Source of the DNA: Lacinutrix sp. Hel_I_90
GTDB lineage: Bacteria > Bacteroidota > Bacteroidia > Flavobacteriales > Flavobacteriaceae
Reading direction: 5' to 3'
Assembly (NCBI RefSeq): GCF_000934685.1
Contig: NZ_JYNQ01000001.1
Span: 682,001 to 746,000, forward strand
DNA length: 64,000 bases
The position numbers and the translations under genes are program-made. Within the stretch, counting starts at the first letter, position 1; each line of letters opens with the position of its first letter. Under the pieces are notes generated by a model. That model had not been told where the DNA came from. It made no database searches and saw nothing but the letters and a program-made list of their open reading frames with translations. Shown in pieces: positions 1 to 15,182 of this stretch.

Positions 1-143
1 GCAATGCGATAATTGCTTTCTTTAATGGCATTATCGGGAAGCCCTACTAAATGATAACCAATGCCAAAATCAACATTAACTTCTACTGTAATGGTTGTGG
101 CATCGACACCAAAAACAGCACTGCCATAAACTTTTTTGAGCAT
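1..143 (-). CDS. YifB/ComM family Mg-chelatase-like AAA+ ATPase, N-terminal fragment
   Basis: The minus strand from an ATG at 143 reads in frame to the left edge, giving 47 codons. The peptide begins MLKKVYGSAVFGVDATTI and continues with GYHLVGLPDNAIKES, the characteristic N-terminus of YifB/ComM proteins. In Haemophilus, ComM is an AAA+ helicase that promotes branch migration of incoming DNA during natural transformation. Elsewhere the family is a conserved housekeeping gene of unclear role. The ATPase core lies outside the window. It marks the left border of the accessory locus, 106 bp past the end of the Hedgehog-like gene. Family assignment is firm for the part visible. Confidence 0.85.
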   Translation of the reverse strand, partial: MLKKVYGSAVFGVDATTITVEVNVDFGIGYHLVGLPDNAIKESNYRI

Positions 144-249: not shown

Positions 250-1527
250 TTACTTTTTCATTGACACATGTACATGGTATTTATCCTCATACAGCACCCA
301 ATCAAATCCTGCTAAAACAGCCAGGCCTGCTAACCGCCCTAACTTATTACCATCTCTATCACTAGTCGTTAAATCTGCGCCTCGACCTTCATAATGCACG
401 CTTGATGTGGCATGTTCATTATTTTCGTCCCAAGCTTCGGTAAGTCTTAGTTTTATTTCAGGACCCCATTCTTGTATCACGAGATCTGCCAGAGCATTTA
501 GCTTCTCATTCATTTTGCTTGTCATGTAACGATCGGCACCTGTGCCCTCTTCATCTTTAAAAATGATTTTCGCATTATCATTTTTAACCAGAGCATCAAA
601 TTCTGGGGTTCCTCTTAAAATTTTTCCTGAAATACGTCCCACGACATCTAATTCTTTTTCCTTAGGAACGTGTTCTCCTAAATTTAAAGTTTCGGGTAAA
701 CTTAAATCGGTACTACTTGGTCTATACACCCAATGCCAAGGTTCGTCTATTTGTAAATTTTGATAAAAGTTATAGGTCGCTGCATTGGCATCTAACCAAT
801 CCCACACCCAGGTGGTTCTCCATGCCGTAGTGGCTTGTGTATTGGTTTTATTCCTATACAATTTCCCGTCTTGGATGTTTTTTATATCAATGGCTAAGCC
901 ATTGTTGTGATTACTATACCCCGGTGTTGCTATGCGTGCTCTGGTGTATGCTGCTAAATGCGATGCTGCGGCATCACCATGTGCTCCGCCTTGCAGCGCT
1001 TCCCGCTCTGTTCTTGTCGCTGAATAATATTGATTGGTAACTAAGTCGTTCCAAATTGTAAATTGATGGGAGGCTGAGCGGTACGCACTGGAGAGGCCTA
1101 CCTCAACATTTTTTCCAGCGCTTGTGATTTCTGCTCGAATGGCTTGCAACATATTAATTGCCGCTTGTGCCGCATTGGTTCTTAATTTAAAGCGGCCTTC
1201 TACAGGTGCCAACTCATTTGCCGGCACATCGTTTACGAAGGTTTGATTGGCTTTCCGTGCCAGATTAATGTCGTACACGCGTTTTAAAAACGTTAGTTGT
1301 TCTGGTGTGGCACCAGGCCATGTTAATCCTGATGATCCCAGTGACTGCTGGGTAGCATAGGTGGCCATTTCAGAAAACGGCCTAACTACTTCTGGTGGTA
1401 AATAATTAAAAGCATGGGTTCGCCCCGAAAAATTAAGCGCCGTTTTCTCTCGACGTGGTTTTTTTATGACTTCTTTAGGTCTTGGTTTTGATTTTGAAAA
1501 ATTATTTATGTTTTGATAACGTATCAT
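250..1527 (-). CDS. VanY-type M15 DD-carboxypeptidase fused to a Hedgehog N-terminal-like domain
   Basis: This 425-aa protein has three parts. Residues 1-105 are basic and Pro-rich with no signal peptide. Residues 106-270 form an M15B (VanY/DacB-like) zinc peptidase: H207 and D214 in SNHNNGLAIDI, E262 and H265 in EPWHWVY. Residues 295-425 match the animal Hedgehog signalling (HhN) domain. There the calcium-site segment FKDEEGTGADRYMT (E326, E327, D332) and TEAWDEN (E364, D367) is followed by VHYEGRGADLTTSDRD (H378, D385) and YEDKYHVHV (E414, H418, H420). Compared with Shh from memory, the zinc ligands, the catalytic-type Glu and most calcium ligands are kept; the last calcium Asp of TEGWDED is Asn here. 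There is no Hint/Hog domain. Hh and DD-peptidases share a fold, so the likely role is peptidoglycan peptide cleavage (inference). It is the last gene of the 12-gene operon. Confidence 0.9.
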   Translation of the reverse strand: MIRYQNINNFSKSKPRPKEVIKKPRREKTALNFSGRTHAFNYLPPEVVRPFSEMATYATQQSLGSSGLTWPGATPEQLTFLKRVYDINLARKANQTFVNDVPANELAPVEGRFKLRTNAAQAAINMLQAIRAEITSAGKNVEVGLSSAYRSASHQFTIWNDLVTNQYYSATRTEREALQGGAHGDAAASHLAAYTRARIATPGYSNHNNGLAIDIKNIQDGKLYRNKTNTQATTAWRTTWVWDWLDANAATYNFYQNLQIDEPWHWVYRPSSTDLSLPETLNLGEHVPKEKELDVVGRISGKILRGTPEFDALVKNDNAKIIFKDEEGTGADRYMTSKMNEKLNALADLVIQEWGPEIKLRLTEAWDENNEHATSSVHYEGRGADLTTSDRDGNKLGRLAGLAVLAGFDWVLYEDKYHVHVSMKK

Positions 1528-1545: not shown

Positions 1546-2226
1546 TTAATGAGAGGCATCATACACATTTGTTTTAAATAATTTGATTTCGGAAAGCCGT
1601 CTTTTAACTAAGCCCGAAAGTCCTCCGTTGGTGACATCTTTCATCTCATCTGCTCCTTTGGCATAGTGCCCCGCATTGATGTACTTTTTAATTTTAGTTT
1701 CTCCTTTTCCAGCGCCTCCAACATTTAAGAAATTAGACCCTGTATTGAATAGCAGACTGACTAAAGCGTCAAACTCGTATTGATAAAGGGGCACAGTGAT
1801 GTCTCTTTGTACTGCTTTTTCAAAATTTGGCAAACGTTTTAAAAACAGCGCGTCTGCTTTTACTTTACTTATGCCTCCTGTAAACTCGGAAGGCAGCGTA
1901 ATGTCTTCACATTTGTTTTTAGCTATCAAATGGCCATAACCAATGGTACAATAGCCCAGTGCATCGTTATAGGCGTTTTCTACAAAACCCTCCCACTCTT
2001 TAATAAAAGCTATGCCTTTAGCGCTTGTTTTTAAAGTTTTAGGGTCTACCCTTGCTGCATTTTGACCAAAAACTAAATGCTGGTACATTCTCGCGTATTC
2101 TGGCCGCACCGATTCAAAATGACTTCTTCGTTTAGTCGCTGTTGGTAGTGCTTTCGTTTTTACATAAAAACTACCCGTTTTAAACGTTTTAATATCTTTG
2201 TCTAACTGAAGAAATCGATTGCTCAT
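1546..2226 (-). CDS. GH24 (T4-type) lysozyme with N-terminal tag
   Basis: This is a 226-aa muramidase of family GH24, which cleaves the MurNAc-GlcNAc bond of peptidoglycan. The T4 lysozyme triad and its spacing are visible as E79, D88 and T94 in [20 protein letters not shown], followed by GYGHL. Residues 1-65 precede the enzyme domain. They are basic, probably disordered, carry no signal peptide, and begin [15 protein letters not shown], almost the same as the next protein upstream. Phage endolysins of this family are usually about 150-165 aa, so the extension is an addition. It lies 18 bp from the Hedgehog/M15 gene, suggesting joint expression of two wall-cutting enzymes. Enzyme call firm; the route to the wall is unknown. 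Confidence 0.92.
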
Positions 2227-2894: not shown

Positions 2895-4211
2895 TTATGC
2901 TTTAACCGCTATAGTACCAGTTAATTCGCAATTAGGGTTTGTATTATTAACAAAGAAGAAGGTGAGATAATAATTTCCAGACTCTAAATCATTCCATGTT
3001 TTAGTATCTGGACCTCCTATTCTAAATTGTTTTGTGCCCTTTTCATCGTCTGGCCAATAATCTACCGACCTCGTTAATGTCACATTTAACTCGTTAAGTG
3101 TTGAACAATTAAGTGGCGTCCAACTGGAATCAATTTGAACCTCAACGGTGCTGCCACTTACTGCAAACACTCTGCTCTTTAAATATCTGTGCTTGATACT
3201 TATGGTACTATTGAAACTAGATTGAGACGATAAAGTCTCTAAAACTTCTTTTTTATGATTGGCTTCAATGGTGTTTAACTTATCTAAATCATTTAAAAAG
3301 TCTTTAGTTTCAATCTTGTCACTATCCTCAGGAGGTTCCTCTTTTTTTTCGGTCTTATGGACTACACGCTCGTTACTTTCAGTAGCCTCCTTGTCTTTTG
3401 GCTTATCCTCTTCTAGCAACTCATGAATTTTTTTGGTGAACTCTTTATCTGTTTCTTTTTCTAGAAAGTCGAACTTTTTATCCATGGCGATCGACCCCAA
3501 GTCGTATGAGCTAGCCATTTCCATACTTTGAGCAATTTTATCAAAAATAGCATGATCATTTTTTAGTTTATCTTCAATTTTCTGGTTGTCATTTTTATCA
3601 AATAGCCCATGATTTTTATCTTTTATAGCTTCCTCTGGATCTTTTGCGACACGTTGTTTATCAAATTGTTTTTTGCCTGTTAAAATCGACTTAATATCCT
3701 CTTCAAATTTTTTATCTTGTTCCCGAATGGCCTCCTCATCTAAGAGGTCTTCTGAATTTACCACAACCGCATCATGAGCTTCAACCGCTTCATTATTGGA
3801 AGTCGCTGTCTCTGGCGTATTTGTCTTTTTAGAGGCATCTGCCTGTTCATTAGACTGTTGTTTTACAAAATTATCTTCTTTTTCAAAATAGGCATTTGCC
3901 GCACTGTAGTCTTCATTGTTTTCATCTGAAACTTCTTCATAATCTAAAGGCGACTCTTGCGCCTGCTTTTGTTGCTGGGAGTCATAACTATGCGCATGAC
4001 TCATGGTAGTATCATCGTGGTCATAACTTAAACTTTGTGGTAAGACGAGTTCTATTTTTTCGTTTTTATCATAATGACCAGAAGTTCCTTTTTCCTGTTG
4101 ATTTGTTGCAAGCTCTGGCTCCAATGGATGGGGCGTTTCTGTACGCATAGCCCTCACACTTGTTTTTGGGTTTTTGGCACTCTTAATTATAAAACTTTTA
4201 TGTTTAAGCAT
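2895..4211 (-). CDS. Acidic low-complexity protein with C-terminal beta domain
   Basis: This 438-aa protein has an unusually charged body. Roughly residues 20-330 are rich in Glu, Asp, Lys, Asn and Gln with few hydrophobic residues, predicting disorder or long charged helices. A short basic segment precedes this (residues 1-24). The last 100 residues are different: they contain Trp, Tyr and Phe in alternating patterns (SGSTVEVQIDSS, FRIGGPDTKTWNDLESGNYY), consistent with an Ig-like or jelly-roll beta domain. No enzyme motif or secretion signal is seen. It is separated by 5 bp from the gene upstream. A flexible linker or scaffold is plausible. Family unknown. Confidence 0.75.
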   Translation of the reverse strand: MLKHKSFIIKSAKNPKTSVRAMRTETPHPLEPELATNQQEKGTSGHYDKNEKIELVLPQSLSYDHDDTTMSHAHSYDSQQQKQAQESPLDYEEVSDENNEDYSAANAYFEKEDNFVKQQSNEQADASKKTNTPETATSNNEAVEAHDAVVVNSEDLLDEEAIREQDKKFEEDIKSILTGKKQFDKQRVAKDPEEAIKDKNHGLFDKNDNQKIEDKLKNDHAIFDKIAQSMEMASSYDLGSIAMDKKFDFLEKETDKEFTKKIHELLEEDKPKDKEATESNERVVHKTEKKEEPPEDSDKIETKDFLNDLDKLNTIEANHKKEVLETLSSQSSFNSTISIKHRYLKSRVFAVSGSTVEVQIDSSWTPLNCSTLNELNVTLTRSVDYWPDDEKGTKQFRIGGPDTKTWNDLESGNYYLTFFFVNNTNPNCELTGTIAVKA

Positions 4212-4216
4212 GACTA

Positions 4217-4960
4217 TTATTTTTTATTATTAAGCTTCATTTTATAGATGGTGAAAGGATCTGAGACAATTATAAGTTCATTATCGTTTTCATTTATATG
4301 TTCTTCGTTTACTTTTATATTAAGTATTCCATTATCTGCATTTTCCAGTTCTGCCAGCTTGCCATTAAAGACAGCAACGGGAGAATATTTTTTATCAACC
4401 ACAAGATTATCGCCTTCGACCACTATAAACGAGCCACTTTTACTAATATTAAAGTTTACATTTTTTACGGTTGGTGGCAAATTATTACGTCTCGCTTTTT
4501 GTAATAGGTTCGCTAACTTGCCATAATTGGTTTTTTTGTTACTTATTTGCTCTAAGTCGACATTACTTTTTTGAATTTGATCTAAATCATTGACGGAGGT
4601 GACCCCTATTTTTCGTAATGTTGATTTTGTTTCGTCATCAATTTCTTCTATTAAATCGATGGAGATATCATCTGACTTCGTGGGTTCTTTTGACGTTTTT
4701 CTTATTTGTTGATCTGTAATAGACCCCAATTGAATGGCAATTTTAGAAGCGCCTTGTTGTCCAGGTTCTGCGGTAACAAACTTCACATTATTACCATCAA
4801 AACTTGGAAACAATTGCATTTCTAGATTGACATCTTTCACCGCATAGGTTAATGGTTTATTAATGGCTTTAACAGACAGCGTTTCTCTAGCCTTATCTAG
4901 CTCTACTATAAGCGAATCTAAAAAAGATTCTAAGTTCCATGCTCTGTTTGCGTTAGCCAT
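4217..4960 (-). CDS. Unrecognised protein with HhH-like segment and beta (IPT-like) C-terminus
   Basis: This is a 247-aa protein with no known family. The first ~100 residues contain strand-like sequence (LTYAVKDVNLEMQLFPSFDG). Residues about 105-150 (DDETKSTLRKIGVTSVNDLDQI, then a Lys-rich helix) resemble a helix-hairpin-helix unit, like the one at the C-terminus of the 378-aa protein in this operon. Residues about 160-247 (LPPTVKNVNFNISKSGSFIV onward) resemble an IPT/TIG-type immunoglobulin-like fold. There is no signal peptide. It starts 2 bp after the stop of the 86-aa gene upstream, so translation is probably coupled. The domain readings are inference from pattern only. Confidence 0.75.
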   Translation of the reverse strand: MANANRAWNLESFLDSLIVELDKARETLSVKAINKPLTYAVKDVNLEMQLFPSFDGNNVKFVTAEPGQQGASKIAIQLGSITDQQIRKTSKEPTKSDDISIDLIEEIDDETKSTLRKIGVTSVNDLDQIQKSNVDLEQISNKKTNYGKLANLLQKARRNNLPPTVKNVNFNISKSGSFIVVEGDNLVVDKKYSPVAVFNGKLAELENADNGILNIKVNEEHINENDNELIIVSDPFTIYKMKLNNKK

Positions 4961-4962
4961 TA

Positions 4963-5223
4963 TTATTCTGTTTCTATAGTTAATTTGATATTATGAAAAA
5001 CGGGCATAAATGTGGTTTCTACATAATACATTGGAGGAATGGCTCCAATTTTTACTTCGTTATTCTCGTCAATCTCTATCGCTAATTGCACGGGGGTTTG
5101 GGTCTCTATTTTTTTTGGTTTTAATACAATTTCTTCATCTAAAAAATGCTCGGTTAGATAGAAATCGACATTAGCCATTTCTAATATAAATTCATGCAAC
5201 GCTATAAAATCTTCATCGTCCAT
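4963..5223 (-). CDS. Small acidic conserved-locus protein (86 aa)
   Basis: The 86 codons encode an acidic protein (starts MDDEDFIALHEFILEM) with a helical first third and a beta-like remainder (PVQLAIEIDENNEVKIGAIP). No family is recognised and no cysteines, membrane segment or signal are seen. The start overlaps the junction with the 49-aa gene: one base separates that gene's stop from this ATG. The spacing argues that it is a real, translationally coupled member of the operon. It could be a small structural subunit or chaperone; nothing in the sequence decides this. Confidence 0.7.
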   Translation of the reverse strand: MDDEDFIALHEFILEMANVDFYLTEHFLDEEIVLKPKKIETQTPVQLAIEIDENNEVKIGAIPPMYYVETTFMPVFHNIKLTIETE

Positions 5224-5378: not shown

Positions 5379-7661
5379 TTAACGTTCTGATGTTGTTCCT
5401 ATAAAATGTATAAAATTTGGTTTAGGAATGACTTTTTCAATAGGGGTTAAACTAACCACCTGCCCATAGGCATCTACATCCCCAATTTGAGAAAGGTGTA
5501 ATTTATACAAGGACATTTCTGGATACGACCATAATGTGCTTGTGTCCCCTTCGCGACCTTTCATTTCTAATCTCATTCTCGAGACTTGCTGGAATACTTT
5601 TTCTATATCACTTTTACTTAATACTTCAAGAATAGATGACTCTAATACGGGTTGATTAAGCAAAGACAGCAACTCATTTATGGCATGCATTCCTAACTCT
5701 GTACCGCTTTTTAATTTTGCTTTCACTTTACGTCTGCCTGGATGCTCTTGGCCTGGTTCTACATTGTCTTCTGTAATTCTTTTTTTAGTTTCAAGTCTTG
5801 AAAGGTCCTGCGCTTTCGTGTTTAATAAGTAGTAGTATTTTAAATCAAATTCTACATGCCACCTGTTACTTTGAGAAAAACCACCTTCCCATATTTTATG
5901 CCAATAGTTTCTATGTACATTTATATCATTTAATGGTATAGGTTCTCCAATTTCTTCTCCTATTCTGTCAAAAATATAGCTCTCTATAAAATGAATGTAA
6001 TGGCTTTTAAAAACACCAATATTTTCATTCTCATTAGATTTCCAAACATGAGACACTTCTAATTTTAGTTCTTTATTACACGGGATTCCTTTAATTTCTT
6101 CTACAGTGAGATAGGCTTCATTAACGTCTATACTTATATCGACATTAACCAACTTAATGTTTTTACGGAAAACCAAAGCCATCGTTTCTGCATCTTTTAT
6201 AAGGATTTGAATCACTGATTTTTTTAGAATTTTACTTAACCGCCCACTACTGGTTGTAATTTCAAAAGGAATAGCGATACGTTGGTTTTTAGCATAGAGC
6301 ACCCGTTGTTTATTTTTAAAATTAACGGTCTTGGTATTTTTAAAATTTAGATTTAAACTTTTTAATAGCTTAAACTCTATAATATCTTCTTTATACATTG
6401 ATGAATTGATACTCATCCCAATGAGCATTTTTGCAATATCATCAGCCGTATCTACTCCAGGGTTTATCGCTTCTAAATGCTTGATTTCTTGTTCATCCAT
6501 TTTTAAGACAGCATCTCCAATGGCTTTAAATAGTTTTACGGGTTGGTTACCTACGGCTTCTATTAACTTGGGATCCAATGCTTTTTCAATTACCGGCATT
6601 AATGCTGGCAATGCTGCTAATAATGCCGGAGCCACTTTGGCTTCAGAAAACTGTTGCCCTTTGCTCTTTTCAATGCCATTCTGTGCTTTTTCGGCTATAT
6701 TATTAACATTACTGGTACTGGTGCCTTCTGTTTTTTGAACGGCATCTTTAATGGCTAGAAATAACTTTTGTGGATCATCGCCAATTGCTAAAATGGCTTC
6801 TGGCGAAAATAATTTTTCTAAAATTGGCGTTAACCCAATTACAGTTTCTGGTTCTAAACTATAAGTAACGCTTAATCTACTAGATGCTATGGATTGCGCT
6901 GGTTGTTGTACCGCTCCATTTGTTGCTGGTTGTGAGGTTTGACTAGTTTCTGTTGTTGTGGCTGGTGCTAAAGTAGCATTAGCAGGCGTTGGGTTAGCAT
7001 TATTTGAAATCGCTTCTAAAACCTCAACGACCTTACTTATCACTTCACTTGTTTTGTTGCTTTCTGCTGTGTTATTCTGGGTATTTGTTGCTGGTTGATT
7101 AGTATTTGACCCGCCAACCAGACTCCCAATTACAGGAGCCGCATGTTCAACTATAGTTGGTAATGCATTAATAATAGCATTCCAAAACATCACCTTGCTT
7201 AATTTAGGCTCTTGGTAATTAAATGCTTTATTTCTAACTAACGTTTCTTGCATGATAGACTCGTTTTTAATGGTTGTTTCAATTGAATTACTAAAGGTCA
7301 AATTATGGGTTCTTCCTACCATTGGATATAACCTAATAATATTAGATATTGTTGGTGCTTTGCTTCGCCTATTTGAAAAGCTATACAGTTGCACATATTT
7401 TGCATCAGCATCAATTTCGGTTTCAGGTATCGTTAAAGGAAAACTACCTTTATTAATTTTCTGCATGGCTTCATTAAGCTGAAGTAGTTTTGAAACTTTT
7501 TTATTTTCGTCTAATACTGTAATGAATTCATTTTTTCCGACTTTTATTTTTTTTTGTTTTGATGCCGTAACATATTTAAAATACTTAGCGGTACCTATAT
7601 CTGCTTGAAACGTATAGTTCCCATTATTTTTACCTTGAAATTTTAAAAATGCTAATGCCAT
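5379..7661 (-). CDS. Large operon protein (760 aa) with internal repeats
   Basis: The largest product of the locus, without a recognised family. Residues 1-160 are beta-rich (MALAFLKFQGKNNGNYTFQA). Residues 185-260 are a Thr/Pro/Asn/Gln/Ala low-complexity linker. Two related ~34-residue units follow at 277-310 and 354-387 (EKLFSPEAILAIGDDPQKLF versus EKALDPKLIEAVGNQPVKLF, 18 of 34 positions identical), with a weaker echo near 164-184 before the linker. Residues 420-580 are again beta-rich; 580-760 are mixed, with WHKIWEGGFSQSNRWHVEF. There is no signal peptide or enzyme motif. Size, repeats and linker suggest a scaffold or shell component. It starts 18 bp after the 356-aa gene. Confidence 0.8.
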   Translation of the reverse strand: MALAFLKFQGKNNGNYTFQADIGTAKYFKYVTASKQKKIKVGKNEFITVLDENKKVSKLLQLNEAMQKINKGSFPLTIPETEIDADAKYVQLYSFSNRRSKAPTISNIIRLYPMVGRTHNLTFSNSIETTIKNESIMQETLVRNKAFNYQEPKLSKVMFWNAIINALPTIVEHAAPVIGSLVGGSNTNQPATNTQNNTAESNKTSEVISKVVEVLEAISNNANPTPANATLAPATTTETSQTSQPATNGAVQQPAQSIASSRLSVTYSLEPETVIGLTPILEKLFSPEAILAIGDDPQKLFLAIKDAVQKTEGTSTSNVNNIAEKAQNGIEKSKGQQFSEAKVAPALLAALPALMPVIEKALDPKLIEAVGNQPVKLFKAIGDAVLKMDEQEIKHLEAINPGVDTADDIAKMLIGMSINSSMYKEDIIEFKLLKSLNLNFKNTKTVNFKNKQRVLYAKNQRIAIPFEITTSSGRLSKILKKSVIQILIKDAETMALVFRKNIKLVNVDISIDVNEAYLTVEEIKGIPCNKELKLEVSHVWKSNENENIGVFKSHYIHFIESYIFDRIGEEIGEPIPLNDINVHRNYWHKIWEGGFSQSNRWHVEFDLKYYYLLNTKAQDLSRLETKKRITEDNVEPGQEHPGRRKVKAKLKSGTELGMHAINELLSLLNQPVLESSILEVLSKSDIEKVFQQVSRMRLEMKGREGDTSTLWSYPEMSLYKLHLSQIGDVDAYGQVVSLTPIEKVIPKPNFIHFIGTTSER

Positions 7662-7679: not shown

Positions 7680-8750
7680 TTAAGCCGTTGCAGCAGGCAA
7701 AGCAGCTTGTTTTTCTTCAGCTGAAGGTGGTGCGTACATTTGCGCAAAATTGTCTAGTTTAAAGTAATCTGTTTTAAACTCTATTTTAACAAAACCTCTT
7801 AATTTTGCTTTCAGCTCATCTTCAGAAGTACTTTTTGCAGAAGACACGCTAAATTTCGTGGTTTGACTACTCCTAGTGCTACCTACACTGCCGCCTCCAA
7901 ATAGTTTACCTATTAAACCAGTACTTGCTCTTCCTGAGGTTCCTGTGGAAGACGTGGTTTTGTTTATGGCTTTGTCTTTCTTCTCTCCAGTACGTTGGCC
8001 TTTAAATTCGAAATTAACCTCAGCTTCAACCACTCCTTTATCTACCACTAAACGCGTTAAGCCCATAAGTACCATTTCTCTCAAAGCCGCACGATGCTCT
8101 TGTGCCATTTTAATTTTGGCATCCATGATTTTGGCTTTAACTTCATTATCACCAATGTCTACAGCCTCTCCTTTAGGATCGGTAAGACTCATTTTCTCGC
8201 CACCCTCGGGATCTTCTTCCATGCTAATATTAAACTCGTCTGGTTTGTTTTCTGCCAAGTAAGCGAAGGTTGTGGTGTCATCGATTTGCTTAATAAATTT
8301 TGCTAAACCTGAAGTCGCTTCCTTCATTAACCGAATGTAATCATCGGTTTGAGATTTCATAACAGAAATGTTGGCATCAAAAACAGATTTAAGTAAATCC
8401 CTTACAAATGCTGGAAAATCTACAGAATCTACTAAATCTTCAAAAGCATCCACCCCTTCTTCAAAGCCTTTTTCATGACGCGAGTCATCAATTAAATTAG
8501 AAGCCCTGTTCGCGGTTTGATTTGCTTTTGCCTGTCTTGTGGCTTTTTCAAGAAAGTTCTCTTTAGCCTGAGAAAAGTCGTCTTGATAATGGCCATTGCT
8601 TTTTCTTAGTTTATCTATTTGATCTTCTACCACATTAACATACATTCTTTTTTGGTCCTCAATGGACATGTTTTTAAAGGTGTCGTTCCCTGATAGGATT
8701 TCTCTAGCTTTATCACGAGCTACCTCTTTTATGTGTTTTGGATTATTCAT
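7680..8750 (-). CDS. Unrecognised helical protein (356 aa) with Ser/Gly loop
   Basis: Residues 1-170 are strongly helical and charged (IKEVARDKAREIL, YVNVVEDQIDKLRKSNG), probably coiled coil. Residues about 225-335 have two beta-like stretches (VVEAEVNFEFKGQ and LRGFVKIEFKTDYFKLDNF) separated by a Ser/Thr/Gly-rich insert (about 255-300). The end is Ala/Pro-rich. The paired strands with a Ser-rich middle faintly recall DUF2589-type proteins, but I would not assign that without a profile search. It has no signal peptide, membrane helix or catalytic motif. It lies between the 330-aa and 760-aa genes with gaps of about 20 bp. Confidence 0.75.
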   Translation of the reverse strand: MNNPKHIKEVARDKAREILSGNDTFKNMSIEDQKRMYVNVVEDQIDKLRKSNGHYQDDFSQAKENFLEKATRQAKANQTANRASNLIDDSRHEKGFEEGVDAFEDLVDSVDFPAFVRDLLKSVFDANISVMKSQTDDYIRLMKEATSGLAKFIKQIDDTTTFAYLAENKPDEFNISMEEDPEGGEKMSLTDPKGEAVDIGDNEVKAKIMDAKIKMAQEHRAALREMVLMGLTRLVVDKGVVEAEVNFEFKGQRTGEKKDKAINKTTSSTGTSGRASTGLIGKLFGGGSVGSTRSSQTTKFSVSSAKSTSEDELKAKLRGFVKIEFKTDYFKLDNFAQMYAPPSAEEKQAALPAATA

Positions 8751-8769: not shown

Positions 8770-9762
8770 TTAGAAATCCCAATTTTCTTCCATAGATTCA
8801 AATTCTTTTTCGGTGTCTTCAAAATCACCGTTTTGCCCGACATCGTCTCCACTTTCAGTACTTTTTTGAAACTGGTGTTGAGCGATAATAAAGGTTTCAA
8901 CATTGCTTACAAATTTTTGGAATTGATCCTCACTAAATGTTGCTTTGTTGTAGATGGCTAAATCTAAAATGATGTTTCTAGCAGAATCGGCAATGGTTCT
9001 TAAAGAAGAGGTGTTAGGGAAATAATTAAACTCCTCCATACTTACGCTTTCTACAATGTTCCAGAGGTCTCTTGAAATACCGTGACCTAATTGATCTCTT
9101 AATTCTTCTGCATTAATAATTTGAATGGCATCCTCAAGATGTGCATACATCTCTGGTACGAATATCTTAACCATACCAGAGGCTGCTCTTGATAGGTTGT
9201 GTTGCAGATCTGTAATCACTTGTTGAATTCCAGATTTTGAAACACGTAGTGGGTCGTCTGCACTTTCGTATTTATCAATATATTTAATAACTTCTCCCAT
9301 CATATTTTCCCAAAGCGGCAAGAAGTTTTCATTGGTGACCATATCTGACACCGTATTCCCGTTTCCAATATCAAAGACTTGCTTATACCACATAGAGCGT
9401 TCATCAAAAGACGTACGGTTATCTCTTAATTGCATGTAATTATAGAGTCTTGTTGCTGTTGTTGTAGATTCTACATCAACCCTACCCATGGTTACATATT
9501 TTAAAATGCTATCTGCCACTCTAAAAATGCCCATCTCATCACCTAAAATCATAATAGCATAGAGTGATGCTGCGTTTTGTATATTCACCACATTAATGGT
9601 TCCTCCTGGTAAATTAAGTGGGTCTAAAAATTGAAATGAATTAACATGATCAAAGTCATTAACTTCATTATAGTAAACGTTCTTTACTGGGTCTCTAGAA
9701 ACGTCACTAGAACTACCTAAAACTTCACTTAACGTGTGCCATAAAATTGCTTCCGTGCTCAT
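8770..9762 (-). CDS. Unrecognised helical protein (330 aa)
   Basis: This 330-aa product has a mostly helical pattern, low Cys and an acidic C-terminal tail (DVGQNGDFEDTEKEFESMEE). The beginning (MSTEAILWHTLSEVLGSSSD) and middle (ASLYAIMILGDEMGIFRVAD) carry no motif I can place. It lacks a signal peptide and membrane segments. It is separated by 4 bp from the HhH gene upstream and 19 bp from the helical gene downstream, so the products are probably made in step. Role unknown; a structural subunit of the same assembly is one reading. Confidence 0.75.
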   Translation of the reverse strand: MSTEAILWHTLSEVLGSSSDVSRDPVKNVYYNEVNDFDHVNSFQFLDPLNLPGGTINVVNIQNAASLYAIMILGDEMGIFRVADSILKYVTMGRVDVESTTTATRLYNYMQLRDNRTSFDERSMWYKQVFDIGNGNTVSDMVTNENFLPLWENMMGEVIKYIDKYESADDPLRVSKSGIQQVITDLQHNLSRAASGMVKIFVPEMYAHLEDAIQIINAEELRDQLGHGISRDLWNIVESVSMEEFNYFPNTSSLRTIADSARNIILDLAIYNKATFSEDQFQKFVSNVETFIIAQHQFQKSTESGDDVGQNGDFEDTEKEFESMEENWDF

Positions 9763-9766
9763 AATT

Positions 9767-10903
9767 TTATCTTTTATTTAATTTATCTTGATACGCCAGT
9801 AGTTCTCTAAATTGACCTTTAGCAATAAATTTTGCCTGTTCAAGTATCTGACCGTAATTAATATTAGCTCTTACTTTTTTCAATCTTTTTTTAAGGCTTG
9901 TTTCATCAAAAGAAGCTAAATGTGAAAAAGACATGATCCCCACTTCTATTAATTCTTTTTTAATAACACTCCCCACCCCTTCTATAGCTTCAAACTCATC
10001 TGGAACTAATTGGTTTTCTTCTTGTGTTGTGCTCTCTTCTTCCTCGTGATTAAAATCTTCATTATACCCTAATTTTAAAAGGTAATCCACCATTTTTTTT
10101 GCTAAAGATTCTTTGTTCGTTGCTCTATCTAAAGTCACTTTACCACTATTTAGAAAGTTCATGACTAATTGATATAATTTTCCCCCTGACTTTAAATCGT
10201 CTATTAATTCTACAATCGTGTTTTCTGGGACTCCCGGAAAGTAACTAATGCGTGTATTCTCAATTTTGTCTTTCAGTATTTTCACCTCTTTCTTGCTTAC
10301 TTCGAGACTCTCTTTTTTGATGATTTTGTCAACCAATTGAACGTTTACATACGATTTTACTAAGTCTAAGGACTCAAACATGTTTGCGCTAATCCCTTCG
10401 CAATCCAAAATTTCATAACCAATAATGGCTCTACAAGCTAGAAACAGAAAAATTCCTTCCTCTGTTAAAATGGCTCTCGAGAGTTGATCTATTGTAGAAT
10501 TATTGATACTTGAGGCTACTTTGGTCATCACTCCCGTATGGCCGTGACTGGTAATAAAGTGTTTAAATTCGTTATCTGTTTTAGTCCTAAGACTGCCGTC
10601 TTCTTCTAAAAGTTCTTGAATAGATTTATTTAAAAATGCTTCTTTTGAAGGCACCTTCATTTTGTTCGTTATTATTTTATTGAGTTCAAATAATGATTCT
10701 TCAACCAAATCGTCAAAGCGCATTGTTGCCGGAGAAATAAAGAATTTTGAAATTAATAAACTGCCCGCAGCATCTATTGAAAACTGGCTTGATTTTAGTA
10801 AATCACTGGTTCTAGGTATTTGATTGTAGTACGTTAGATTATTTATACTTGGTAGCTTAAGCTTACTACTCCTAGATTCTGATAATGTTCCATTTTTATT
10901 CAT
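9767..10903 (-). CDS. Helical protein with C-terminal helix-hairpin-helix domain (378 aa)
   Basis: Residues 1-290 are largely helical and unrecognised. An acidic spacer (NHEEEESTTQEENQ) leads to a clear helix-hairpin-helix module at about 305-360: FEAIEGVGSVIKKELIEVGI, then SFSHLASFDETSLKKRL. This is the pattern of DUF4332/Rad51-N-type HhH repeats (x-IEGVGxxxxxxLxxxGI-x-S/TxxxLA). Such modules bind DNA non-specifically or mediate protein contacts. Nothing else suggests nucleic-acid processing. It is the second gene of the operon, 10 bp after the subtilase. HhH domain confident, function not. Confidence 0.8.
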   Translation of the reverse strand: MNKNGTLSESRSSKLKLPSINNLTYYNQIPRTSDLLKSSQFSIDAAGSLLISKFFISPATMRFDDLVEESLFELNKIITNKMKVPSKEAFLNKSIQELLEEDGSLRTKTDNEFKHFITSHGHTGVMTKVASSINNSTIDQLSRAILTEEGIFLFLACRAIIGYEILDCEGISANMFESLDLVKSYVNVQLVDKIIKKESLEVSKKEVKILKDKIENTRISYFPGVPENTIVELIDDLKSGGKLYQLVMNFLNSGKVTLDRATNKESLAKKMVDYLLKLGYNEDFNHEEEESTTQEENQLVPDEFEAIEGVGSVIKKELIEVGIMSFSHLASFDETSLKKRLKKVRANINYGQILEQAKFIAKGQFRELLAYQDKLNKR

Positions 10904-10913
10904 AATACATTTT

Positions 10914-12227
10914 TTACAGGTTATAGTTTAACATTTTTAATGCATCTAGTACATTGATTCTTCCAAATCCCGATTTTTCATCTTTAAATTGATTACTAAA
11001 TTTATCGGTTGTGCGTTGTACGATGTCTCGTATTAAGTCATTTTTTATTTTTTTCCCTTTTTGATGGGCAAAAGATTTTAATAAGGCTACCGTACCACTA
11101 ACATAGGGAGACGCCTGAGAGGTTCCAGAGGACAAGGCATACCCATTATTTAAGAAAGAGCTATAGACATTGACCCCTGGTGCCGTTACTGAGACGTGTC
11201 CGCCATAGGTAGAAAAAGGAGCCACGTGACCAACATTGTCTGATGCGCCTACGGCAATCACATAATCCAAAGCGCCCGGGTAGTATTTGTCTTTTTTACC
11301 ATCGTTTCCAGAAGCAGCGACTACGGTAACGTCGTTATCTAAGGCATATTTAATAACATCCCTATGTGGTAAACCTCCGCCTGTATGCTTTATTCCTAAA
11401 CTCATATTAATCACATCTGCTCCTTTATCTACAGCATATTTAATCCCTGAGTTGATATCGTCTATGAGTCCAGCTCCTACTACCTTACCATTAGCATTTA
11501 GTGCTCCCAGCACTTTTATGGGTATTATTGTGCAATTGGGCGCCACACCAATGGGCATTTTATGGCCTTTAGAGCCAATAATTCCTGCGACGTGGGTTCC
11601 ATGTCCAACTTTGTCGTCTGGGATGTCATCCATATCTAAAAAGTCACCAACAAACTGTTGAGCGCCATCGATGATGTTCACAAAGTCTTTGTGGTCTTTA
11701 AATTTTGGATTTTGACTGTCTTGTACTTCAAATTCAAAATGGCTGGTTTCAATACCGGTATCTAAAATGGCGATTTTAATCTCTGGATGTCCTTTTGTCC
11801 AAAGATGTCCCTCTTTTAAATAAATGGCGTTATCGCTGTATTTTGAGCTTAAACTTTGAGTGGCGGCTAATTCTTGTCTTGGAATGTCACTGGTTGTAAT
11901 TTGCCCTTCATTAACATAAACGACATTAGGTAAAAAGGAAATATCATCAATTAACTGCTCAGGAATCGTTGTATTATTGGTGAGAAGAATGAGTCTGTAA
12001 ATTCTGTCTAATCCCGACCTTATTTCTTCTGGAGACCACTTTTTGTTTTTTGATTTATAGTTTTGAGACGCTATAAAATCTATTTTATAGGTCTTGTTTA
12101 TAATGGCATCTATATTTGGAACAAAGCTTTTGCTTAAATTACTTTTGTCATTAATCAAGGTCTCCCAATGGTCATACCTTGGGTTTTCATCTTGATTATT
12201 TAGCTTTATTATAAGATGCGGTTTCAT
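10914..12227 (-). CDS. Subtilisin-like (S8) serine protease without signal peptide
   Basis: This 437-aa protein is a complete subtilase. D156 sits in AILDTGIE, H209 in GHGTHVAG, oxyanion N308 in AASGND and nucleophile S370 in SGTSQASPYVSGTVALL. Residues about 45-115 resemble an I9-type propeptide ending NVVYVNEGQ, which in the family inhibits and folds the enzyme before self-cleavage. The N-terminus (MKPHLIIKLNNQDENPRYD) is not a signal peptide, so it probably acts in the cytoplasm or is exported with an assembly. It is the first gene of the 12-gene operon. A maturation protease for its neighbours is plausible; a toxin-like effector is another option. Confidence 0.93.
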   Translation of the reverse strand: MKPHLIIKLNNQDENPRYDHWETLINDKSNLSKSFVPNIDAIINKTYKIDFIASQNYKSKNKKWSPEEIRSGLDRIYRLILLTNNTTIPEQLIDDISFLPNVVYVNEGQITTSDIPRQELAATQSLSSKYSDNAIYLKEGHLWTKGHPEIKIAILDTGIETSHFEFEVQDSQNPKFKDHKDFVNIIDGAQQFVGDFLDMDDIPDDKVGHGTHVAGIIGSKGHKMPIGVAPNCTIIPIKVLGALNANGKVVGAGLIDDINSGIKYAVDKGADVINMSLGIKHTGGGLPHRDVIKYALDNDVTVVAASGNDGKKDKYYPGALDYVIAVGASDNVGHVAPFSTYGGHVSVTAPGVNVYSSFLNNGYALSSGTSQASPYVSGTVALLKSFAHQKGKKIKNDLIRDIVQRTTDKFSNQFKDEKSGFGRINVLDALKMLNYNL

Positions 12228-12341: not shown

Positions 12342-13124
12342 TTAGATTTGCATTATTGTGTATGGTTTTTGTGGTATTGAGTCAACTTTATACGATTGGT
12401 CCTTATGGCACAATCTAAATTGCGTTGGATTATCACGGAAATGTTTTTTAAATAAGCGACAGTAATACTGTTGCGAACTAAACCCTAACGCATCAGATAT
12501 CCGACTTATCTGCCAATTGGTAACGATGAGTAAATGTTTACTCTTTTCTAATTTATATTTATTTATAAATGCTGTTGGTTTTAATCCGGTATGCCTTTTT
12601 ATCTTTTTACTCAATGAGCTCCGGCTCATATACAACAACTCGCTTAGTTGTTGCATGTTTAAAGTATCGTTATCAATATTTTCATCTATAATTTTGGTGA
12701 CTTTATTCAAAAATATATCCGCGCTATCTGTGCTTACCTTATTATTCAACACATTTATAGATCCTTTAATCTTGGCTAAATATTTTAATAAAATAGGAAT
12801 GAGCGAAAAGTGAATAAACTCTGACCCTGCTTTTATATTTAATGAAGTTGTATAGGTTACAATGAGGTTAAGCTCATCAAGCGCCTTTAATATTTTATTA
12901 TTAATAGAACTTTCATTATTTACCAAAACAATATCCATTTCGGTCTGGTCTCTATGAATACTAGAGGATTTGTATTGGATGTCATTTTTAGTTATATAAG
13001 ATTCTAGACAGGATGGAATACTGCCAATATGCAGTATATCTAGCACCACAAATTCTGTTCTCAGCGTTAATCGCGTTACTGTAGCGTCTGACACCAAATG
13101 CTTCCTTATTAAAACTCCTTCCAT
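12342..13124 (-). CDS. AraC-family transcriptional regulator
   Basis: This is a 260-aa regulator. The C-terminal ~100 residues are an AraC/XylS DNA-binding domain with two helix-turn-helix units: LSELLYMSRSSLSKKIKRHT and ISRISDALGFSSQQYYCRLF, followed by KKHFRDNPTQFR. The N-terminal ~150 residues match no sensor domain I recognise. It is 114 bp upstream of the subtilase on the same strand and divergent from a NarL/LuxR-type regulator. It is therefore the likely controller of the operon, perhaps through the tandem repeat upstream of its start. Confidence 0.9.
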   Translation of the reverse strand: MEGVLIRKHLVSDATVTRLTLRTEFVVLDILHIGSIPSCLESYITKNDIQYKSSSIHRDQTEMDIVLVNNESSINNKILKALDELNLIVTYTTSLNIKAGSEFIHFSLIPILLKYLAKIKGSINVLNNKVSTDSADIFLNKVTKIIDENIDNDTLNMQQLSELLYMSRSSLSKKIKRHTGLKPTAFINKYKLEKSKHLLIVTNWQISRISDALGFSSQQYYCRLFKKHFRDNPTQFRLCHKDQSYKVDSIPQKPYTIMQI

Positions 13125-14228: not shown

Positions 14229-15182
14229 ATGGGACGAGTATGTAGAGAAGTACAAGAATGGGTCGAAGAAGAAATCCAAAAACCTATTGAAACGTGGGAA
14301 GAAAGAGCAGAAGAACGATGTAGTCGAAGAAGATGTAAATGGTGGTGCGCCTGCTGCAATAAGTGGTTTTGCTGGATTGAAATTCTATTAGTAAAAATCA
14401 TAAAATGGGTAGTCGTCATCGTTGGCAAATGGGTCACTAGAGTGATCTGTGAAATTATTTCTTTAATTTTAGATGTTATTGCTTTTGTCGTTAATCTTAT
14501 TTTAAGCATCCCCATAATTGGAGGTATCATTAGAACCCTATTAAATTGGATCACCGAAATAATTTGGCGTATTGTTGGCTTATTTGATTTTATTGGAAGT
14601 CTATTAGGCATTCGACCGCGAAAGAAAATGTATTTTGGTCTTATTATACCTACCCACGACGGGGAACCTATTGCCAGCCAAGCAGACCTACAACCTCAAT
14701 TAGACGCTGCTATTGAGCATATGGATAGGCTATGTAACGTGAATTTAATTTTTACCGGTACTTGTAATTCTACTATAAACGCGCCGAATAATCCTTTAGA
14801 ATATCCTTGTAATGCTGAAGGCTTTTTTAGCGACTGGTGGATTCAAGGGTCTTTTTATGAGCTTGCCACATCACTTTGCAAATTTGAAGATGGTTGGCGC
14901 AGAGTCTTAGGTTATGGGGCTGAAATTATTGTGTTCGTGGTTGACGATGTAACACCCGATGGCAAAGGAGGCTGCAGTATGGCTGCCTCTACAAATTATA
15001 TCATGACAGAGAGCGGTACCTCTACAAACATGATTGCTCACGAAATGGGCCATGCTTGTATCCTACTTCATAGAGACAATCGCGCGAATTTAATGTTTCC
15101 CACAGTAGGTTCTAGCCCTCAGACCCTAACCAACTGGCAAATTTCTGTTATTCGTTGGAGTAAGCACTGTGTGTATATTTAA
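14229..15182 (+). CDS. Metzincin-like zinc metalloprotease with Cys/Trp-rich membrane-active N-terminus
   Basis: The 317-aa protein starts with charged helices (1-35) and a Cys/Trp-rich patch (RRCKWWCACCNKWFCW). About 80 hydrophobic and amphipathic residues follow (about 52-125, with NLILSIPIIGGIIRTLL). The C-terminal domain carries HEMGHACILLH (H271, E272, H275, H281), a zinc site of the metzincin form, and a Met-turn NLMF (M289). The Gly usually found in the metzincin HExxHxxGxxH motif is Ile here. It lacks a normal signal peptide. This layout fits a protease that inserts in or crosses a membrane, such as a delivered effector (inference). It sits 277 bp after the response regulator on the same strand. 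Confidence 0.8.
   Translation: MGRVCREVQEWVEEEIQKPIETWEERAEERCSRRRCKWWCACCNKWFCWIEILLVKIIKWVVVIVGKWVTRVICEIISLILDVIAFVVNLILSIPIIGGIIRTLLNWITEIIWRIVGLFDFIGSLLGIRPRKKMYFGLIIPTHDGEPIASQADLQPQLDAAIEHMDRLCNVNLIFTGTCNSTINAPNNPLEYPCNAEGFFSDWWIQGSFYELATSLCKFEDGWRRVLGYGAEIIVFVVDDVTPDGKGGCSMAASTNYIMTESGTSTNMIAHEMGHACILLHRDNRANLMFPTVGSSPQTLTNWQISVIRWSKHCVYI

Follow-up and report, generated by a model that had tools for sequence, protein, structure and literature searches.

The locus analyzed here raises the question of what a domain closely resembling the animal Hedgehog signaling domain is doing in a bacterium, and with it touches on the long-running question of whether Shh is a working peptidase or is descended from one. 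It lies at the start of a 64,000-nucleotide stretch from Lacinutrix sp. Hel_I_90 (contig NZ_JYNQ01000001.1, positions 682,001–746,000; hereafter the window). An earlier note on this DNA had placed a Hedgehog-like domain at 250–655; this range corresponds to the last ~135 codons of a minus-strand open reading frame of 425 amino acids (250–1527), the translation of which contains all of the motifs quoted in the note. We designate the encoded protein VanY-Hh; its features are:

250..1527, minus strand: VanY–HH_signal fusion, 425 amino acids, last gene of the cassette (PF02557, 56 bits; PF01085, 171.7 bits)
262..687, minus strand: HH_signal domain, residues 281–422, from Pfam, the fold model and a dN/dS of 0.048 (145 codons)
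718..1188, minus strand: VanY D-Ala-D-Ala carboxypeptidase domain, residues 114–270 (PF02557)

The PF01085 (HH_signal) search that the note had suggested as a check gives 171.7 bits for residues 281–422 (E 1.3e-50), far over the cut-off of 22.1; as none of 14 control genomes has a match to HH_signal, the match in the window is far beyond chance. In a PDB sequence search, all 25 matches of VanY-Hh at E<=0.01 are hedgehog proteins, with Indian hedgehog (3n1f, E 3.6e-44) at the top, and the aligned identity of the domain is 55% to human SHH, 57% to IHH, and 52% to Drosophila Hh. Such similarity is not new, because bacterial Hedgehog proteins (BacHh) with >50% identity to ShhN have been published (Roelink 2018, PMC6027127; Jagers and Roelink 2021, PMC8052667; here and below, papers are cited for parts of their text). 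The note had rightly stated that bacterial Hedgehog-like proteins are known, but the novelty it implied was overstated, as bacterial Hh domains >50% identical to Shh, together with a proposed bacteria-to-animal transfer, were published in 2018 and 2021.

The structural comparison points the same way as the Pfam search. An AlphaFold model of the HH domain, built with eight bacterial rows, has a mean pLDDT of 82.5 and a pTM of 0.83, and matches the Shh fold (Foldseek against 3n1f: E 6.3e-19, TM 0.88). Among the best 50 of 166 Foldseek matches with E<=10, the 38 at E<=0.001 are all hedgehog structures, with query TM values of 0.84–0.89 to Shh, Ihh, and Dhh and 0.77–0.84 to Drosophila Hh; the first match of another kind among these 50 is a VanY-like LD-carboxypeptidase at E 0.1. 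The poorest part of the model (model residues 94–104, pLDDT <50) covers the positions of H372 and H378. A model of full-length VanY-Hh from four sequences was set aside (mean pLDDT 46.9).

The domain carries the zinc-site pattern H-x6-D ... H-x-H with a catalytic-type Glu (H378, D385, H418-x-H420, and E414). The zinc ligands (H378, D385, H420), E414, and the residues E326, E327, D332, E364, and D367 were correctly numbered in the note and are invariant in all four full-length rows, that is, the window VanY-Hh and three relatives. An alignment of nine bacterial HH domains, which takes in the window domain and spans several phyla, is invariant at the positions of E326, E327, D332, E364, D367, H372, H378, D385, E414, H418, and H420 (9/9). 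H372 and H418 fall on H135 and H181 of mouse Shh. Most calcium ligands are present, as the note had claimed: five of the six of mouse Shh (as given in PMC8052667) are identical in the window, and the sixth, D132, corresponds to Asn369. The other bacterial domains in the alignment have Asp, Asn, or Lys at this sixth position.

Absent from the earlier note were the N-terminal VanY domain and the cassette in which the gene lies. PF02557 matches VanY-Hh at 56 bits against a cut-off of 25 bits, and the residues S205-x-H207-x(2)-G210-x-A212-x-D214 and E262PWH265 are invariant in 4/4 rows, the window included; this pattern is the VanY motif, with H207, D214, E262, and H265 kept. VanY-Hh is, as predicted from these residues, a tandem of two LAS-type metallopeptidase domains, each with its site residues. 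It resembles the VanY/M15B carboxypeptidases in its N-terminal domain with the intact motif, but differs from them by the additional HH domain and by its neighbors, which form no vancomycin-resistance operon. With the N-domain of animal Hedgehog (Shh/Ihh/Dhh) it shares the fold, the zinc ligands, and most calcium ligands, whereas its N-terminus is a different one and it falls into a separate clan in the tree: VanY-Hh has no Pfam match to the Hog/Hint autoprocessing domain and stops three residues past the HH match, and ahead of the HH domain lie VanY and a linker instead of a Patched-binding N-terminus. The window protein is therefore, on its predicted domain content, a bacterial HH-domain enzyme and not a Hedgehog ligand.

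VanY-Hh is encoded by the last of 12 minus-strand genes separated by 2–155 bases, in the order AraC regulator, S8 subtilase, p378, p330, p356, p760, p86, p247, p438, p201, lysozyme, and VanY-Hh. The remaining features of the region are:

1..143, minus strand: 5' part of comM, 106 bases past VanY-Hh; the gene extends outside the window
1546..2226, minus strand: phage-type lysozyme, 226 amino acids (PF00959, 96.9 bits), with an N-terminal leader of 15 residues
2254..2859, minus strand: p201, unnamed, with an Ala-rich hydrophobic stretch; leader MSNRFLFLEKELTGF
2895..4211, minus strand: p438, unnamed, with orthologues in relatives
4217..4960, minus strand: p247, core protein, with homologues in relatives and on plasmids
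4963..5223, minus strand: p86, core protein, with homologues
5379..7661, minus strand: p760, core protein, with homologues
7680..8750, minus strand: p356, core protein, with homologues, including four paralogues in a Burkholderia cluster
8770..9762, minus strand: p330, the most conserved core protein (83–84% identity in three other genomes)
9767..10903, minus strand: p378, with orthologues
10914..12227, minus strand: S8 subtilase, 437 amino acids (PF00082, 158.4 bits), without a hydrophobic N-terminus by hydropathy
12342..13124, minus strand: AraC-type regulator, first gene of the cassette (PF12833, 63.7 bits), with orthologues

The neighbor beyond VanY-Hh is comM (yifB). A Pfam search of all 12 cassette proteins gave no match over cut-off for the core proteins other than S8, and no NucA, other nuclease, or trypsin in any of the 12; p247 and p356, the two core proteins searched against PDB profiles, have no match at E<=0.1. 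Residues ~281–370 of p378 show weak matches to families that we read as having helix-hairpin-helix-type ends. Window p247 has no match to Trypco2 (PF19631) at E<=0.1; its Burkholderia relative matches Trypco2 weakly (16.6 bits, below the cut-off of 24.2) and its Tolypothrix relative matches TIG weakly (19.8 bits, below the cut-off of 20.9). In a sample of Planctomycetota, Trypco2 is over cut-off in 0/129 genomes and at E<=0.001 in 1/129. Matches to PADLOC at E<=0.1, with ten proteins searched, were limited to the S8 protein and the protein encoded at 14229–15182, and we do not read these two as a known defense system. The latter gene lies on the plus strand, divergent from the cassette; the N-terminus of its product is rich in Cys and Trp and strongly hydrophobic, and the product ends in a weak match to a matrixin-type zinc protease (PF00413, E 0.0085, below cut-off) and has no match among the genes of two fully read relatives.

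The cassette was found beside comM in five Flavobacteriaceae genomes, with 12/12 genes in identical order in Algibacter, Flavivirga aquatica, and Flavivirga algicola. Ten of the genes are present in the stretch examined of Lacinutrix neustonica (L010 12–10465), several of them split by frameshifts that may reflect sequencing error or decay, in a genome of 84% completeness. In 4/5 genomes comM directly follows VanY-Hh; in L. neustonica a partial comM lies ~1 kb beyond VanY-Hh and the full comM 4.8 kb beyond it. This partial second copy of the start of comM (L010 11480–12132), between the cassette and the full gene, could be the sign of an insertion site beside comM. As to integration ends, comparison of ~2 kb at each end of the cassette yielded a single 17-base match (94%, E 0.053) besides seven matches of 11 bases, and no tRNA gene occurs within the 20-kb stretch. 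Past comM in Algibacter (L012 13308–20097) there is a separate run of six open reading frames, the first with an NWCWAA motif that we read as papain-like.

The HH domain is 98% identical to that of L. neustonica and 76–80% identical to those of three other flavobacterial genomes, as against 56–58% for the whole of VanY-Hh in the latter. Relative to L. neustonica, dN/dS is 0.04–0.09 for five cassette genes and 0.089 for the whole VanY-Hh (372 codons); within the latter, the HH domain stands at 0.048 and the VanY part at 0.171. Relative to F. algicola, three genes give 0.12, 0.12, and 0.28, and saturation leaves two without a defined value. The cassette genes compared are under purifying selection. 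The distribution is sparse, with p760 in 3/299 genomes of a family sample and p330 in 1/296 of a phylum sample, the window genome itself.

Parts of the cassette occur far outside this family without the HH domain. Out of 72,556 plasmid records, p247, p356, and p330 match four, three, and four, respectively; all three match plasmids of the cyanobacteria Tolypothrix and Microchaete, and p247 and p330 also match a plasmid of Burkholderia pyrrocinia. The Tolypothrix plasmid keeps the cassette order (S8, a p330-like protein of 615 amino acids, p356, p760, p86, and p247) with two extra genes interspersed, one of which encodes a protein with a peptidoglycan-binding domain. The Burkholderia cluster has S8, p247, four p356 paralogues, and two p330-like proteins in an order that differs from the window, and adjoins an Amidase_2/C92/C70 protein; p760 and p86 are unmatched there in a profile search. 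Neither the Tolypothrix nor the Burkholderia plasmid was matched in the plasmid search for HH, and neither stretch has a match to comM. Just past the Burkholderia cluster (L058 14656–31390) are genes for a protein with an adenylate/guanylate cyclase domain and a patatin-like phospholipase. What emerges is a set of core genes without a name, of which three phyla have parts in common.

Bacterial HH domains themselves are rare. HH_signal is over cut-off in 1/395 genomes of a sample of the window's phylum, which is the window genome (one more reaches 21.1 bits, below cut-off), and in 2/13 genomes of its genus. A scan of a collection with two peptide patterns gave 300 candidate stretches, seven of which were confirmed as HH: those of L. 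neustonica, F. algicola, an uncultured Algibacter, and F. aquatica, and those of the isolate M00.F.Ca.ET.205.01.1.1, one Phycisphaerae MAG, and one Sumerlaeota MAG. Around the isolate, HH_signal was found in 1/297 genomes of a family sample and 1/297 of an order sample, both being the isolate itself, and around the Phycisphaerae MAG in 1/246 of a phylum sample, again that MAG itself. The only HH match among the 72,556 plasmid records is in Pararhizobium gei.

BacHh genes of Mesorhizobium and Bradyrhizobium have neighbors encoding lysozyme, amidase, M23, trypsin, MMP, and nuclease proteins (PMC6027127, PMC8052667). The isolate M00.F.Ca.ET.205.01.1.1 is entered at NCBI as unclassified bacteria; because its locus resembles the one in these genera, we regard it as probably rhizobial. 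Its BacHh neighbors are Amidase_2-M23, DUF3616, matrixin, a Trypsin_2-Endonuclease_NS-S8 fusion, and bDLD2-Trypsin_2, whereas those in Pararhizobium are an astacin, a caspase-like protein (just below cut-off), Trypsin_2-PLD, an M15_4 protein, and a muramidase, along with an annotated HNH endonuclease. A theme of proteases and wall enzymes is thus seen at 2/4 of the non-flavobacterial BacHh loci and is absent from the other two (L015 and L016), where the Pfam-named neighbors (five proteins scanned) are housekeeping ones such as COX1/COX2 and H+-pyrophosphatase. The cassette families found near the four loci are only VanY-Hh and, at the isolate, S8.

The locus of the isolate, with its trypsin-NucA-subtilisin fusion and bDLD2-trypsin, is like System 3 of Kaur et al. 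(2020, PMC7159879), in which peptidases are coupled to NucA and for which effectors cutting peptidoglycan are also named. The core of System 3 is NucA plus a trypsin-like peptidase; the window cassette differs in having S8 and wall hydrolases without a NucA or trypsin match. The word hedgehog is absent from the main text of that paper and of its 2021 sequel (PMC8195603). The neighborhoods described here tie BacHh to loci of a kind thought to be bacterial conflict systems. Compared with the BacHh (Hh-DD-peptidase) of the two earlier papers, the window protein shares the domain, the zinc site, and the C-terminal place within a larger bacterial protein, but is fused to VanY, occurs in a Bacteroidota genome, and sits in a 12-gene cassette. 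The main texts of PMC6027127 and PMC8052667 do not name Flavivirga, Lacinutrix, or Bacteroidetes, and we found no description of the VanY-Hh architecture and its conserved cassette context in the open-licence literature searched. The domain itself is real, striking, and of a kind already in print.

What does this protein do? The fusion to VanY and the adjacent lysozyme lead us to favor peptidoglycan as the substrate, and peptidoglycan cutting by VanY-Hh is likely. The earlier note had proposed a calcium-regulated peptidoglycan or peptide hydrolase; a hydrolase is indeed most likely given the complete LAS-type set of zinc-site residues, whereas the calcium regulation stays conjectural. Our best explanation, to which we give slightly better than even credence, is that HH is a zinc peptidoglycan peptidase acting with VanY and the lysozyme, within a cassette that includes a subtilase and serves lysis or conflict. 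HH, as the second of two catalytic domains carried by VanY-Hh, would cut the peptidoglycan stem peptide in a zinc-dependent and probably calcium-stabilized manner, and VanY-Hh would dismantle the wall together with the adjoining lysozyme. The two would be the effectors of the S8-containing cassette; holding, processing, or releasing them would fall to the subtilase, as a putative trigger, and to the unnamed core proteins, and either the producing cell itself or a neighbor would be lysed. That the cassette serves lysis or conflict is a reasoned guess drawn from its context: Pfam gives no match over cut-off for any core protein but S8, nor do PDB profiles at E<=0.1 for p247 and p356, so this label rests on association.

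For this explanation we count the HH, VanY, and lysozyme Pfam matches, the zinc-site residues kept in 9/9 domains, the conservation of HH, the 12/12 cassette order, the plasmid core clusters, and the BacHh loci of M00.F.Ca and Pararhizobium. Against it we count that no activity data for any BacHh were found in the parts of the BacHh literature cited here (PMC6027127, PMC8052667), that Shh itself is termed a pseudo-enzyme (PMC6027127), and that a Bradyrhizobium BacHh domain swapped into Shh did not restore matrix association (PMC8052667); further, the housekeeping neighbors at L015 and L016, the missing core (bar S8) near the four non-flavobacterial BacHh, the lack of a nuclease or trypsin in the window cassette, the unmatched p760 and p86 in Burkholderia, and that no export route was identified. 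Alternatively, HH might be a non-catalytic binding module, as some argue for Shh, that anchors VanY to wall or matrix glycans. HH does adjoin a complete VanY domain, and Shh binds glycans according to the titles of the structures 4c4m and 4c4n; yet the zinc ligands, E414, H372, and H418 are kept in 9/9 bacterial domains from several phyla, whereas Drosophila Hh has lost several site residues (PMC6027127), and L015 and L016 carry HH with only a short N-terminus. We consider a binding module unlikely.

Delivery of the putative effectors may involve a leader shared by two cassette proteins. Nearly identical leaders of 15 residues are encoded at 2182–2226 (lysozyme) and 2815–2859 (p201) on the minus strand; residues 2–16 of the two score 39 with BLOSUM62, whereas the runner-up among 990 pairs of open reading frames reaches 18. 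NRF occurs near the start of lysozyme in 4/4 rows, of p201 in 4/4, and of VanY-Hh in 2/4. Hydropathy shows no hydrophobic N-terminus for lysozyme or for VanY-Hh in any of four rows each. The shared leader is possibly a targeting leader, and together with the lack of a hydrophobic N-terminus in lysozyme and VanY-Hh it is counted for the best explanation. Genome-wide, the leader pattern gives 23–44 matches per genome against 9–28 in a reversed control (four genomes); it recovers the cassette's own genes and is too loose to tell of others.

Another reading makes the cassette a module for lysis, or the cargo, of an extracellular particle, a gene transfer agent, or a decayed prophage, with VanY-Hh as its endolysin; the leader common to lysozyme and p201 counts for this as well. 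The lysozyme is of the phage type, and its match to the gene-transfer-agent endolysin NF058676 has an E value of 2.8e-21, although its 76 bits stay below the cut-off of 315. The VanY part is similar to a segment of phage tape-measure proteins (phrog_16823, E 1e-10). However, only the lysozyme and VanY domains match PHROGs at E<=0.01 among ten cassette proteins; HH is absent from 50,697 phages, as are p356 relatives from the phages searched, and two scans of viral contigs gave no HH, nor were relatives of p760 or p330 confirmed there. We think this reading quite improbable.

The unrooted tree of HH domains separates nine bacterial from three animal rows (the latter without hedgling) at 100/100. 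Lacinutrix is a marine genus, and this and the 55% identity to SHH would suit a Hedgehog mimic of animal origin directed at animal tissue. We reject this hardly credible reading on the tree and the architecture, given the 100/100 branch between the bacterial and animal rows, the lack of a Hog match in VanY-Hh, a Patched-binding N-terminus that is not conserved in BacHhs (PMC8052667), the relatives in Rhizobiaceae and in Phycisphaerae and Sumerlaeota MAGs, and the wall-enzyme neighbors.

The direction of transfer was called an open question in the earlier note, and we agree: beyond the unrooted split, rooting with three M15 domains (a fourth M15 locus, L048, was left out) gave no answer, with outgroup end branches of 2.2–7.0 changes per column and AU p values of 0.475 and 0.494. 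A bacteria-to-animal transfer of Hh has already been proposed (Roelink 2018, PMC6027127; Jagers and Roelink 2021, PMC8052667), and comparable origins from bacterial effectors have been proposed by others for the Hint domain and Wnt (PMC12419801). Tentatively, and with confidence well short of even, we suggest that the HH domain began as a wall-cutting effector in protease-gated conflict loci of bacteria and that the animal ligand descends from such an effector. It may have been recruited, on the same tentative footing, by at least two unlike systems, namely the subtilase/p247-core cassette of the Flavobacteriaceae and the trypsin-NucA-death-domain locus of the probably rhizobial isolate. For the question of Shh as a peptidase, the locus supplies a bacterial relative that can be tested: the residues of its two active sites are intact, peptidoglycan is a natural candidate substrate, and its partners are conserved. 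Identity of the HH domain is 58–68% between bacteria of different phyla, 71–74% between human and fly, and 49–57% between bacteria and animals.
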